The notes beneath the pieces are model-generated. The model was not told where the DNA came from, ran no database searches, and saw nothing but the letters and a program-made list of their open reading frames with translations. The position numbers and the translations under genes are program-made. From Salinirussus salinus (GTDB lineage: Archaea > Halobacteriota > Halobacteria > Halobacteriales > Haloarculaceae), in assembly GCF_009831455.1 (NCBI RefSeq), contig NZ_WOWO01000002.1:186001-250000 (forward strand): DNA of 64,000 bases, in the 5' to 3' direction. Position 1 is the stretch's first letter; each line of letters opens with the position of its first letter. Below are positions 3,537 through 10,755 of the stretch, piece by piece.

Positions 3537-4349
3537 TTACCGGTTGCGCCCGGCCGCCTCGACCAGCGCCCGGACGCGCTCGCGCTCGACGGGTGCGGCC
3601 GTCTCGCCACCTCTCTTCAGCGCCGTCCCGACGACCAGCCCGTCGGCAAGCTCCAGCAGGTCCGCGGCGTTGTCGGCCGTGACGCCGCTGCCGACGAAGA
3701 CGGGCACGTCGCGGGTGGCATCGTCCCGGCCGTCGAGCACCCGGCGCAGGTGGTCGCCGTCGGCCGCCTCGCCGGTCGTCGGCCCCGACACCACGAGCCC
3801 GTCGGCCAGCCCCCGGTCGACCGTCTCCCGAGCCAGCCGCGCGAGGTTGCGGTCGGCGACCGCCCCGGAGTGTTTGACGGCCACGTCCGCCAGGACGGCC
3901 ACGTCGGCGTCCAGTCGCTCGCGCAGCCGGAGCGTCCCGTGGGCCCGCCCCTCGAGCACCCCCTGGTCGGTCGCGCGGGTCCCGGTGTGGACGTTCACCC
4001 GGACGAACGACCCACCCGTGGCCGCCGCCACCGAGAGGGCGGCCTCGGCGTCGTTCCTGAGGACGTTCACGCCGTGGGGGAGGTCCACCTCGCCCGTGAC
4101 CGACTCGACGACCGCCGCCATCTCCGCGACGACGTGGGCCGGGACCGACTCGGGGTGGTAGGGCGCGTCGCCGTAGTTCTCCACGAGGACGGCGTCGCAG
4201 CCACCCTCCGCGAGGGCGGCCGCGTCGGCGCGCGCCCGCTCCCGGACGGCTCTCCTCTCGCCCCCGTACCCCGGCGAGCCGGGCAGGGCCGGGAGGTGGA
4301 CCATCCCGACCACCGCCCCCTCGCGTCCGAAGACCGCCTCGACGTCCAT
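3537..4349 (-). CDS. BtpA/SgcQ family TIM-barrel protein
   Basis: A 270-residue protein of the BtpA family. The N-terminus AVVGMVHLPALPGSPGY is the family signature, followed by CDAVLVENYGDAPY, the region FVRVNVHTGTRATDQG, and the C-terminal phosphate-binding-like strand/loop PVFVGSGVTADNAADLLE. BtpA in cyanobacteria is needed for stable photosystem I. SgcQ-type proteins elsewhere are thought to be sugar-phosphate TIM barrels, so the biochemical role in haloarchaea is open. The start codon is ATG at 4349, directly after the long gap that holds the candidate structured RNA. Confidence 0.9.
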   Translation of the reverse strand: MDVEAVFGREGAVVGMVHLPALPGSPGYGGERRAVRERARADAAALAEGGCDAVLVENYGDAPYHPESVPAHVVAEMAAVVESVTGEVDLPHGVNVLRNDAEAALSVAAATGGSFVRVNVHTGTRATDQGVLEGRAHGTLRLRERLDADVAVLADVAVKHSGAVADRNLARLARETVDRGLADGLVVSGPTTGEAADGDHLRRVLDGRDDATRDVPVFVGSGVTADNAADLLELADGLVVGTALKRGGETAAPVERERVRALVEAAGRNR

Positions 4350-4466
4350 GGCCGGCCTTCGCCCCGACCGGACTAAACCCTGGCCCGTCCGCGGTCACAG
4401 TTTCCGTGAGATATTGACACGCAAATTTCAACAAAGCTTACTATCACCTGGCGCCAACCTCACAGT

Positions 4467-4731
4467 TGCGCGGGAAGTCATCCGGGCCAACTGGACGGTC
4501 CGTCGAAGACCGATAGGGAAGCGACGGGCTGGGAACGCCTCCCGAAATCATAAGGGCGGTGGTCCGAAGGAGAACCGCACCACACCGACGCCGTCCCTTC
4601 CGGAGGGGGCGGAGGAAGGCCAACTACCGCCGGCCGGGAAACCGGCCGGTGGGAACCCGGCAACACGCCGGCACAGCCGTAACGGACGTGGGGAAAACGT
4701 CTCCAGTCCGGGTCCGGGTGGTTACCGCGCA
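4467..4731 (+). ncRNA. Candidate structured RNA in the 4350-4802 gene-free gap
   Basis: No credible gene fills 4350-4802. The sequence folds into a closed multi-stem structure by eye. The ends pair 4467-4473 with 4725-4731 (7 bp). After a small internal loop, 4479-4488 pairs with 4711-4720 (10 bp, two G-U). Inside are hairpins at 4591-4597/4606-4612, at 4627-4637/4642-4652 (11 bp capped by GAAA), at 4657-4661/4667-4671 and at 4685-4689/4697-4701. The GAAA cap favours the plus strand, and an AT-rich TTACTA box at 4438-4443 lies about 25 bases upstream. Weak likeness to the cobalamin aptamer core and to RNase P conserved regions did not hold up, and the next plus-strand gene is far away, which argues against a cis riboswitch. 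Identity unknown. Confidence 0.42.
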
Positions 4732-4802
4732 CCCATTCATCTCCGACATTCCGACCGCGAGCCACGGGGCCGTCCCGACCGCTGCCCCGACGCGGTCTCC
4801 TG

Positions 4803-5387
4803 TCACCCGGCGTAGTCGGGTTCGTTACCGGGCTTCCACTTGATCGAGCAGCCACGGGAGGCTTTGAATCCGGCGTCGACCTCGCCGCCGGCCAGCAACG
4901 TCTCGATGTGTCCCTTCATCTCGCGCTCGGTGGGCTCGTCGTCGGGGTTGAGCGCGTCGTCCAGCCGGCCGTGGTAGGCCAGCCGGAAGGTCCCACTCAC
5001 ATTCTCGAAGAGGAACGGGTCCGGCGTGCAGACGGCGCCGTAGGCCGCCGCGACCTCCTGGCTCTCGTCGCGCAGGTAGGCGTCGTACCGGACGTCGCCG
5101 CGCTCGACGTACTCCCGCATCTTCTCGAAGGAGTCCTCCGGGTACTCCTCCTCGTCGTTCGGGTTGACCCCGACGACGGCCACCTCGTCGTACTCCTCTG
5201 CCAGGGCGTTCAGCTCGTCGAATTTCGCCTTCGCGTACGGGCAGTGGTTGCAGGTGAAGACCACCAGAAGCGCCTCGCGGTCCGCGAACTCGGAGAGTGC
5301 GTGGGTCTCGCCGTCGGTGCCGGGTAGCTCGAAAGCCGGTGCCTCGTCGCCGCGCTCCAGAACTTCCTCGGAGTCGAGTGCGACCAT
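4803..5387 (-). CDS. Thioredoxin-like / peroxiredoxin-type protein
   Basis: A 194-residue thioredoxin-fold protein. The N-terminal strand GDEAPAFELPGTDGE is typical of AhpC/TSA-like domains. The redox site is VVFTCNHCPYAKAK, a C-x-x-C motif, and a cis-Pro region follows near VCTPDPFLFE. The shape matches small 'redoxin' proteins that reduce thiols or peroxides, and the exact electron acceptor is unknown. The ATG at 5387 is chosen because it gives MVALDSEEVLERGDEAP. The frame stays open upstream but runs antisense to the EamA gene. The gene ends just before the structured-RNA gap. Confidence 0.85.
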   Translation of the reverse strand: MVALDSEEVLERGDEAPAFELPGTDGETHALSEFADREALLVVFTCNHCPYAKAKFDELNALAEEYDEVAVVGVNPNDEEEYPEDSFEKMREYVERGDVRYDAYLRDESQEVAAAYGAVCTPDPFLFENVSGTFRLAYHGRLDDALNPDDEPTEREMKGHIETLLAGGEVDAGFKASRGCSIKWKPGNEPDYAG

Positions 5388-8082: not shown

Positions 8083-10755
8083 ATGGCAACCGACGAGACG
8101 GGGGGCGAGGAGGGCCAGTCGGACCCGGAGGCCGACCCGGACTCGGCGGCCGAATCGGAGCTGGAGTGGGGGTCGACCCCGGGGTCGAACCCCGACCGGG
8201 CGGCTGACACGGAACGGGAGGGCGTCGCTCCGGAGGACCCCCGGGTGGCCGTCGGGGAGTACTCCTGGACCGACCTCCGTCGCGAGACCGACGGCGAGGG
8301 GTCGCTCGACCGGGCGGAGTATCTCGGGTTCGACCCCGCGGACCTCGGGGACCGCCTCCGCGAGGCAGCCGGCGCTGCCGCAGACCTCGACGACCACTTC
8401 CAGGCGTTCTGTGACCCCGAGACGACCCCGGTGGTCAAGGACACCTACAAGTGGGAACACTTCAAGCGGGAGTACTACTACGAGGCCGGCGGCGCGCTCC
8501 CGCGCAACCAGGCCGGCGAGCAGATCCCCTTCGAGCCGGCGGGATATCTGGGATTCGACCCCGCCGAGACCGAGCCACGGCTCTCCCGCGGGCAGGACGC
8601 CGCCGAGACACTCGCCGACATCGTCGAGGAGCGGACCGTCAACGTCAGAGAGGAGCTCGACGAGGACGACTTCTTCTCGACCCGGGAGGGCTACTGCACG
8701 GTCGTCGACCGCTACGACCTGGAGAAGGCAGTCCCGATGGAGAAGAAGACCCACTTCTACGAGGAGGACCGTTACTGGGTGAACAAGCCCTACGCCTGCG
8801 TCGTCATCTTCCACTCCCGGAAGGAAAACGAGCGCAAGTACTACGTCATCGAACCGTACAGCAACGAAATCGAGGAGCGGCTCCGCGATTTCCTCTCGCG
8901 GAAGCTCAAGACTGCGATCAAGTACTCCGAGGACGACGTCGTCGTCCAGGGCAGCGACACCGACAGGGCGCAGGTCATCCAGCGGGAGGCCGAGAACCTG
9001 CTCAACCGGTACGACCTCTACGACGGCACGACGGTCCACACGAACGGGAGCGGCGACGAGGAGGACGGGATGCTGGCACAGCTCAAGGGGATGCTCGGGA
9101 TGAACGGCGCCGAGAGCGAGTCGACCGGTGGCGAACTCGAGGGGATCGCCGTCCGCCCCGAGCCGGCGATCCTCGAGGACGACCCGGAGACGCTCACCGA
9201 GTACCAGGTCGAGAAGCTGCTGTACCTGCTCAAGCGCAACTTCATCGGCTACGCCCGGATCGATGCGGTCAAACACGACATCAACGTCGAGGACATCTCC
9301 TGTGACGGCTACAACTCCCGGGTGTTCGTCTACCACACCGACTACGAGCAGATCATCACCAACGTCGAACACGGCGAGAGCGAACTCGACGAGTTCGTCG
9401 TCAAGCTGGCCCAGCGCTCGGGGAAGGGCATCTCGAAACGCCAGCCCCAGGTCGACGCCACCCTCCCCGACGGCTCGCGTGCCCAGCTCACGCTGGGCCA
9501 GGAGGTCTCGGACCACGGCACCAACTACACCATCCGCCAGTTCAAGGACGTCCCCTTCACTCCGGTCGACCTGATCAACTGGAACACGTTCAACCTCGAC
9601 GAGATGGCCTTCCTGTGGCTCTGCATCGAGAACAACAAGTCCCTCATTTTCGCCGGCGGTACCGCCTCCGGGAAGACCACCAGCCTGAACGCCGTCTCCC
9701 TCTTCATCCCCTCCAGCGCCAAGATCGTCTCCATCGAGGACACCCGCGAGGTCGAACTCCCACAGCGCAACTGGGTGGCGTCCGTAACGAGGCCCTCGTT
9801 CGGCGAGGACGACAAGGGCGACGTCGACGAGTTCGACCTGCTGGAGGCCGCACTCCGGCAACGGCCCGACTACATCGTGATGGGCGAGGTCCGGGGGGAG
9901 GAAGGACGGACCCTCTTCCAGGTCATGTCGACCGGCCACACCACCTACACGACCTTCCACGCGGACTCCGTCGGCGAGGTGATCAAACGGTTCACCACCG
10001 AGCCGATCAACGTCTCGAAGACGCTGTTCACCGCGCTGGACCTGGTCTCGATCCAGACCTCGACCCGCGTCGACGGCCACAAGGTCCGCCGGAGCAAGAC
10101 CCTCACCGAGATCAACGAGTACACCCCCGAGAACGACGAGATCAACGTCCGGGACGTCTACGAGTGGCGCGCGGAGACCGACGAGTTCCTCCAGATGGGC
10201 TCCTCGAGCACGCTCGAGGAGATCAAGTTCGACCGCGGGTGGACCCGCGAGCGCCTGGACGAGGAGCTGTTCAAGCGGAAGGTCGTGCTCGCCTACCTCA
10301 TCCGCAACGGGCTCAACAGCTACACCGAGGTGGCGGCGACGATCCAGGCCTTCATCAACGACCCCGAGACGATCCTGACGGTCATCGCCAACGAGCGCCT
10401 GGAGCGGTCGCTGGAGGACCTGCGGGAGATGGAGTCGGTCCAGATCGAGGTCGACCCCGAGAAGGAGGAACTGACGCCGCGGCCGGACCCCGGCGAGGAC
10501 CTGATGGACGAGACGGCGGAGATCATGGAGAACGCCGAGCCGATGTTCGAGCGCTACCGGGGGATGGAGGCCGGCGACATCGTCAACGCGCTCCAGGGGA
10601 TTACCGACGAGGAGGCCGGCGAGGAGACGCCGATCCCCGAGACCCCCATCTCGGAGACGCCTATCGAGGAGGGTGGCGGGCTCGGCGACGACCTCGACTT
10701 CGGCGAGTTCGTCCCCAAGGCGGGTGAGGACGAGGAGAGCGAGGGACAGCCGTGA
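8083..10755 (+). CDS. pilB: Type IV pilus / type II secretion ATPase, PilB-like (archaeal VirB11-GspE family)
   Basis: An 890-residue cytoplasmic AAA-type ATPase powering pilus assembly. An acidic, probably disordered N-terminus (about 65 residues) precedes paired YLGFDP repeats near residues 85 and 155. A central N-terminal domain leads to the ATPase core with Walker A GGTASGKTTS at about 525-534, an Asp box VSIEDTREVELP, Walker B region YIVMGEVRGEE, and a His box STGHTTYTTFHADS. The C-terminus is Glu-rich with repeated IPETPISETPI. The stop overlaps the GTG of the membrane partner by 4 bases, so the pair forms one operon. No pilins lie alongside, so the substrates are encoded elsewhere. Archaellum FlaI is less likely given the length. 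Confidence 0.92.
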   Translation: MATDETGGEEGQSDPEADPDSAAESELEWGSTPGSNPDRAADTEREGVAPEDPRVAVGEYSWTDLRRETDGEGSLDRAEYLGFDPADLGDRLREAAGAAADLDDHFQAFCDPETTPVVKDTYKWEHFKREYYYEAGGALPRNQAGEQIPFEPAGYLGFDPAETEPRLSRGQDAAETLADIVEERTVNVREELDEDDFFSTREGYCTVVDRYDLEKAVPMEKKTHFYEEDRYWVNKPYACVVIFHSRKENERKYYVIEPYSNEIEERLRDFLSRKLKTAIKYSEDDVVVQGSDTDRAQVIQREAENLLNRYDLYDGTTVHTNGSGDEEDGMLAQLKGMLGMNGAESESTGGELEGIAVRPEPAILEDDPETLTEYQVEKLLYLLKRNFIGYARIDAVKHDINVEDISCDGYNSRVFVYHTDYEQIITNVEHGESELDEFVVKLAQRSGKGISKRQPQVDATLPDGSRAQLTLGQEVSDHGTNYTIRQFKDVPFTPVDLINWNTFNLDEMAFLWLCIENNKSLIFAGGTASGKTTSLNAVSLFIPSSAKIVSIEDTREVELPQRNWVASVTRPSFGEDDKGDVDEFDLLEAALRQRPDYIVMGEVRGEEGRTLFQVMSTGHTTYTTFHADSVGEVIKRFTTEPINVSKTLFTALDLVSIQTSTRVDGHKVRRSKTLTEINEYTPENDEINVRDVYEWRAETDEFLQMGSSSTLEEIKFDRGWTRERLDEELFKRKVVLAYLIRNGLNSYTEVAATIQAFINDPETILTVIANERLERSLEDLREMESVQIEVDPEKEELTPRPDPGEDLMDETAEIMENAEPMFERYRGMEAGDIVNALQGITDEEAGEETPIPETPISETPIEEGGGLGDDLDFGEFVPKAGEDEESEGQP

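Follow-up and report, generated by a model that had tools for sequence, protein, structure and literature searches.

RNase P RNA (RF00373) is a large structured archaeal RNA that carries T-loop-type modules, and HARP is its protein-only counterpart. In type III toxin-antitoxin systems an RNA is paired with an RNase and occurs patchily, while GOLLD and ROOL are large, ornate bacterial RNAs of unsolved function. OLE (PMC9723947, PMC11332333), another such bacterial RNA, is several hundred nucleotides long, with multi-helix junctions, many conserved unpaired bases, a known or suspected protein partner, extremophile hosts and a function that is unsolved. HARP is a homolog of the Aquifex protein-only RNase P (PMC12153264, PMC10941002) and is known to co-occur with the RNA ligase Rnl3 (PMC12153264); its knock-outs in Haloferax and Methanosarcina showed no phenotype, and its archaeal role has been called unknown (PMC10941002, PMC12153264). 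The HARP-Rnl3 pair (PF08745/TIGR03875 with TIGR01209; Seshadri and Gopalan, 2025, PMC12153264) is patchy in extremophiles, encoded side by side and of unsolved function, and the available portions of that report name no dedicated noncoding RNA partner and propose C/D box RNAs as substrates. The system described here shares that protein family, its patchy distribution and the side-by-side arrangement, but in it a large RNA tracks HARP, also where Rnl3 is missing. It resembles OLE, GOLLD and ROOL in size, junctions, conserved unpaired bases and a suspected protein partner, but differs from them in being archaeal, tied to HARP and without an Rfam 15 match. It is distinct from RNase P RNA, since it gives no RF00373 match and the same genome has a separate RNase P RNA, and it differs from type III antitoxins in being a single large fold rather than short repeats, with promoter-like signals of its own and on the strand opposite HARP.

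The window analysed is a stretch of 64,000 nucleotides of the Salinirussus salinus genome (contig NZ_WOWO01000002.1, positions 186,001 to 250,000), in which the initial annotation had noticed an unassigned structured RNA. In structure prediction the plus strand of 4467-4731 reached -145.5 kcal/mol, a value matched by 0 of 200 shuffled sequences (z -6.2), whereas the minus-strand fold was only slightly better than shuffled (z -2.06). The gap is flanked by a BtpA-family gene (3537-4349) and an AhpC/TSA-family gene (4803-5387), both on the minus strand, as had been described. The 7-bp closing helix, the 11-bp hairpin with a GAAA cap, the further hairpins (4497-4505/4522-4530 and 4591-4599/4604-4612 among the stems present) and the TATA-like box, an AT-rich element at about 4434-4445 centred near -27, were all recovered, while the second end helix of that description exists in a conserved register that differs from the single-sequence fold (Table 1). 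Elsewhere in the window, a large gene at 8083-10755 (+) encodes a PilB3-like secretion ATPase (T2SSE, PilB3_C), probably a pilus assembly motor.

Comparison with known RNA families showed no match at the Rfam 15 gathering scores, whether in the window, at nine homolog loci or within the RNA of three distant loci, and permissive scans returned only scattered weak matches. The covariance searches proposed at the outset were negative: RNase P RNA (RF00373) gave no match in the window or homologs, the true copy of this genome lying on another contig (G000:C3:509818-510205), and archaeal SRP RNA and the cobalamin riboswitch (RF00174) gave no match in 4300-4900 even at E 10. ARAGORN found no tRNA or tmRNA inside the RNA at ten loci, and a weak match to P15, at 21.9 bits far below its gathering score of 70, was due mostly to a single GC-rich hairpin. 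The possibility of a viral carrier was also considered, as 19 viral contigs fit a core pattern of 15 fixed bases; these matches are attributed to chance because a second covariance model (R2) found no RNA in those contigs, only one 11.9-bit fragment. Among the papers listed in searches of open-access literature, none describes this RNA or any noncoding RNA tied to HARP. In the available part of its description, the RNAs given for a curated genome of Haloferax gibbonsii are limited to 7S, RNase P and H/ACA RNAs (PMC7921747), and a term search of the 2010 survey of 104 motifs returned no mention of haloarchaea (PMC2864571). Among the homolog loci, one carries a match just at gathering score to the eL15-Euryarchaeota ribosomal leader (L083:1175-1260, +), and in a distant HARP-positive genome two tRNA matches lie near the RNA (L167:134-300, +, and 4696-4782, -), the 167-nt one being probably intron-bearing.

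The RNA proved to be conserved well beyond the window. Relatives were found by blastn in 10 genomes besides the window's own (58 searched). Of 392 genomes from the order, 114 were found to carry the RNA with a covariance model built from six sequences, window included (R1), and most of these have a single copy. R2, whose training set, like that of R1, contains the window sequence, was applied to 294 genomes of the phylum outside the order and identified clear members in three, which belong to two other families; a weak match in G632 (E 0.0036), which lacks HARP, was not counted as a member. One genome carries two tandem copies about 156 nt apart (L088:4001-4288 and 4445-4729, -), indicating that the RNA can duplicate in place. 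Compensatory changes, whose absence from related genomes would have spoken against a structured RNA according to the initial annotation, were abundant. In 88 aligned homologs, 77 of 84 pairs had changes on both sides, 93.5% of cells were paired as compared to 75.1% in shuffles, and the covariation score was 0.466 against 0.175 when shuffled and 0.048-0.085 with partners slid; the alignments (A3 and A4) include the window and are fitted to the R1 structure, which favours pairing, and as an unfitted check a structure-blind MAFFT alignment of six sequences with RNAalifold gave 84 pairs and showed double changes in 35 of these. Compensatory changes therefore exceeded both the shuffled and the slid controls. 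In addition, G-U cells outnumbered A-C cells on the plus strand (254 vs 68), which fixes the RNA strand as plus. These data show that 4467-4731 is one member of a new conserved, covarying class of structured RNA in halophilic archaea, a large RNA that Rfam 15 does not contain and that is left unannotated in two Halorussus plasmid records.

In its overall architecture, the RNA has a multi-branched core closed off by two helices, the terminal one and the second end helix (Table 1). The most highly conserved core stretches are GGAGAACCG, GAAGGCCAAGUA and GUGGAAAACGUCUCCCGUCC, and a length-variable region sits between two core helices. Across 80 loci (79 homolog loci and the window, one copy per locus, leaving out L130, the second L088 copy, L004, L006, L007, L008, L010 and L011), RNA length ranged from 243 to 528 nt, with a median of 286. 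Hairpins of the form GCCGGUGNRANYCCGGC and kin, which have the pattern of a tRNA T loop, a module known from other structured RNAs as well, occurred 55 times in 36 of the 80 RNAs, whereas shuffling (30 rounds) gave 2.0 on average.

Table 1. Features of the structured RNA and its upstream region in the window.
Feature	Position	Strand	Evidence
TATA-like, AT-rich box with its centre about 27 nt upstream of the RNA	4434-4446	+	Sequence; A+T peak and TATA-like words across 80 loci
Whole structured RNA	4467-4731	+	R1 match 4467-4733, 173.5 bits; R2 match 4467-4731, 142.5 bits
Terminal helix P1, 5' strand, TGCGCGG (pairs with 4725-4731)	4467-4473	+	Fold; helix 1 covaries, 5/5 pairs with both-side changes
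Terminal helix P1, 3' strand, CCGCGCA	4725-4731	+	Fold and sequence
Second end helix, 5' strand (pairs with 4706-4722; conserved register 4480-4482/4720-4722, 4484-4487/4712-4715, 4491-4496/4706-4711)	4480-4496	+	Model alignment; helices 2-4, pairing in 91.7 to 97.0% of cells
Second end helix, 3' strand	4706-4722	+	Model alignment
Hairpin P3, 9 bp (4497-4505/4522-4530)	4497-4530	+	Single-sequence fold; window copy out of register in model alignment
Conserved GGAGA strand (pairs with UCUCC 4700-4704)	4569-4573	+	Model alignment and sequence; helix 9
Variable hairpin, 9 bp	4591-4612	+	Model alignment; helix 11, 9/9 pairs covary
Highly conserved core (GGC 4618-4620 pairs with 4676-4678)	4614-4626	+	Consensus of 88 homologs; helix 12
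GAAA-capped hairpin, 11 bp	4627-4652	+	Fold and model alignment; helix 13
CCGGC/GCCGG stem closing the length-variable region; site of T-loop-like hairpins in longer homologs	4657-4671	+	Covariation, model alignment

Analysis of the 80 loci also revealed that the RNA is framed by gene signals of its own. Upstream of the RNA, A+T content peaked from -34 to -22 and 23 loci had TATA-like words at -45 to -15 (control mean 0.43), and a T run followed the 3' end in 38, as compared to about 2% of random stretches, while the genes flanking the RNA varied between lineages. These promoter- and terminator-like signals, together with the differing flanks, support an independently transcribed RNA that acts in trans rather than as a cis switch, its transcription being predicted from the signals; the plus-strand G-U bias and the heavy covariation agree with the stable trans-acting RNA suggested at the outset. 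A cis element such as a leader or riboswitch of a neighbour, which the initial annotation had thought unlikely, or a chance GC-rich fold can be regarded as refuted to near certainty. The distance of about 120 nt to the start of the BtpA gene, which is on the opposite strand, speaks in favour of such an origin, but the changing neighbours, the plus-strand fold, the own signals and the covariation all argue against it.

Among the genes around the 80 loci, the sole family recurring beside the RNA in several lineages was the RNA ligase partner (PIN_5, PF08745/TIGR03875), that is, HARP, which adjoined the RNA at 13 loci from five families. HARP (E below 1e-20; the curated cut-off gives the same count) was present in 163 of the 392 genomes of the order, and the distribution of the two was far from random: 106 genomes had both, 8 the RNA only, 57 HARP only and 221 neither (Fisher p 4e-43, kinship ignored), so that HARP occurred in 106 of 114 RNA-positive and 57 of 278 RNA-negative genomes. 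Within the nine genera that vary for both, the Mantel-Haenszel odds ratio was 17.5 (p 0.0014; 233 of the 392 genomes, those with a genus label), and the tally over 81 labelled genera gave 42 with both, 3 with the RNA only, 17 with HARP only and 19 with neither. The tie of the RNA to HARP is thus non-random but not strict, the eight exceptions including the window genome. Applied to the 57 genomes with HARP only, R2 added just G197 (E 2.5e-22) and a weak match in G291 (6e-4); the order-wide searches ran with stricter filters, so the RNA-negative counts are upper bounds. All three clear distant carriers have HARP, which proves little since HARP is found in 120 of the 294 genomes of the phylum sample. 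In Haloarcula, the RNA is located in the secD-rnhB gap, which cleanly lacks it in seven HARP-positive and three HARP-negative genomes. In one genus (g27), the RNA keeps its neighbours where the HARP-Rnl3 block is missing (G066, G112) as where it is present (G105); the three loci (L123, L127 and L121, respectively) have common flanks, a proteasome alpha gene and, in two, an aldehyde dehydrogenase gene, and offer a natural with/without comparison.

The arrangement of the two genes was evaluated in the 102 RNA copies with listed HARP coordinates (the weak matches G035:C7:38441-38529 and G194:C2:592634-592860 were left out). HARP was on the same contig in 59 and within 170 nt in 18, of which 14 were divergent and 4 convergent; of two further near pairs, one was 1.3 kb apart with Rnl3 between, and the other 7.7 kb apart. 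The RNA and HARP were on opposite strands in all 20 near pairs, with HARP upstream in 15 and downstream in 5. In most genomes having both, the two genes are far apart, and no RNA was found within 5-6 kb of HARP in the three distant genomes or in three further HARP plasmids. In two annotated Halorussus plasmids the RNA occupies an unannotated gap beside the gene of an 'RNA ligase partner protein'. On these plasmids (L198 and L199, 427 kb and 532 kb) HARP and the RNA together adjoin a gene with a HalOD1 output domain, and on a Salinigranum plasmid (L200) a HalOD1 gene follows HARP. The slot divergent from HARP is filled by the RNA on the two Halorussus plasmids and by Rnl3 in Natrinema and Halocatena records, whereas the Salinigranum plasmid has neither nearby. 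It could be argued that the RNA and HARP are unrelated accessory elements kept by the same high-salt lineages, their adjacency reflecting chance or a shared island history, as most pairs are non-adjacent and HARP, Rnl3 and the RNA are all patchy, largely by clade. We hold this to be improbable, because the association persists within genera, the adjacency occurs in two opposite arrangements and the RNA takes a slot that Rnl3 fills on other plasmids.

The ligase Rnl3 (TIGR01209) exceeded the cut-off in 117 of the 392 genomes, all HARP-positive, and the 163 HARP-positive genomes comprised 61 with the RNA and Rnl3, 45 with the RNA only, 56 with Rnl3 only and a single one with neither, as compared to about 16 expected if the two were independent (p 1.3e-9, kinship ignored). 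Where Rnl3 is absent from a HARP-positive genome, the RNA was therefore the steadier companion of HARP, as the plasmid arrangements also indicate: it was present in 45 of 46 such genomes, which span 14 genera. These counts bear on the possibility that the RNA is a substrate, whose 5' end HARP would trim and which Rnl3 would circularise, with the terminal helix holding the ends. Such a role would agree with the conserved terminal helix joining the ends, with the co-occurrence of HARP and Rnl3 side by side (also described in PMC12153264) and with the contiguous HARP, Rnl3 and RNA of G105. We nevertheless judge it unlikely, since the RNA is already framed by promoter- and terminator-like signals, and Rnl3 is neither necessary nor sufficient, being missing from 45 of the 106 genomes with RNA and HARP, while 56 of the 117 Rnl3-positive genomes have no detected RNA. 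A circular RNA made by Rnl3 also requires the ligase, which is lacking in those 45 genomes and in the window genome as well.

The same counts could be read as those of a toxin-like RNase, HARP, with the RNA as a tRNA-mimicking sponge antidote and with Rnl3, which would repair the cut RNA, in the role of an alternative antidote. The near-absence of HARP without the RNA or the ligase (1 of 163 genomes against 16 expected) and the survival of the RNA without HARP in eight genomes fit the logic of an antidote, as do the T-arm-like hairpins and the likeness of HARP to VapC (PMC10941002). This reading is nonetheless rather doubtful, because the published work on HARP speaks against toxicity: an RNA-degrading role was deemed unlikely (PMC10941002), and, as described in PMC12153264, HARP can make up for RNase P defects in E. 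coli and yeast, while knock-out of Rnl3 in Thermococcus caused no growth defect. A type III system proper, in which the antitoxin RNA lies directly upstream in the toxin operon, was rejected, as every one of the 20 near pairs has the RNA on the strand opposite to HARP.

Taken together, we lean, by a little, towards a new independently transcribed, trans-acting class of structured RNA that would function jointly with HARP in halophilic archaea. As the RNA occurs almost always in genomes with HARP, it may be the missing partner of this protein, and we infer an action on or together with HARP, for which binding would be the simplest means. The HARP oligomer reads the acceptor/T-arm part of tRNA. 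The folded RNA would dock on this oligomer, and the T-arm-shaped hairpins present in many members would be an obvious contact if HARP reads tRNA there; once docked, the RNA would regulate or scaffold HARP, and it seems able to replace the Rnl3 ligase as companion. More tentatively, and as a possibility that we would not yet call probable, HARP could act in an RNA-protein particle with a dedicated large RNA partner, the RNA and Rnl3 being alternative companions that make HARP tolerable or useful.

The window copy itself may be an orphan that lost, or never had, HARP. Its genome has the RNA and lacks HARP and Rnl3, and no hidden HARP was found there by TIGR03875 or PF08745. Of the 76 consensus pairs, the window copy retains 58, the lowest number among 39 copies (83-99% in the others), a low count that is partly misalignment, as the P3 hairpin is intact in the single-sequence fold; decay after loss of the partner is plausible.

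For the family as a whole, a covarying RNA that tracks HARP across the order, and that is near-constant where the known ligase partner is missing, provides a concrete molecule for probing the role of HARP in archaea.
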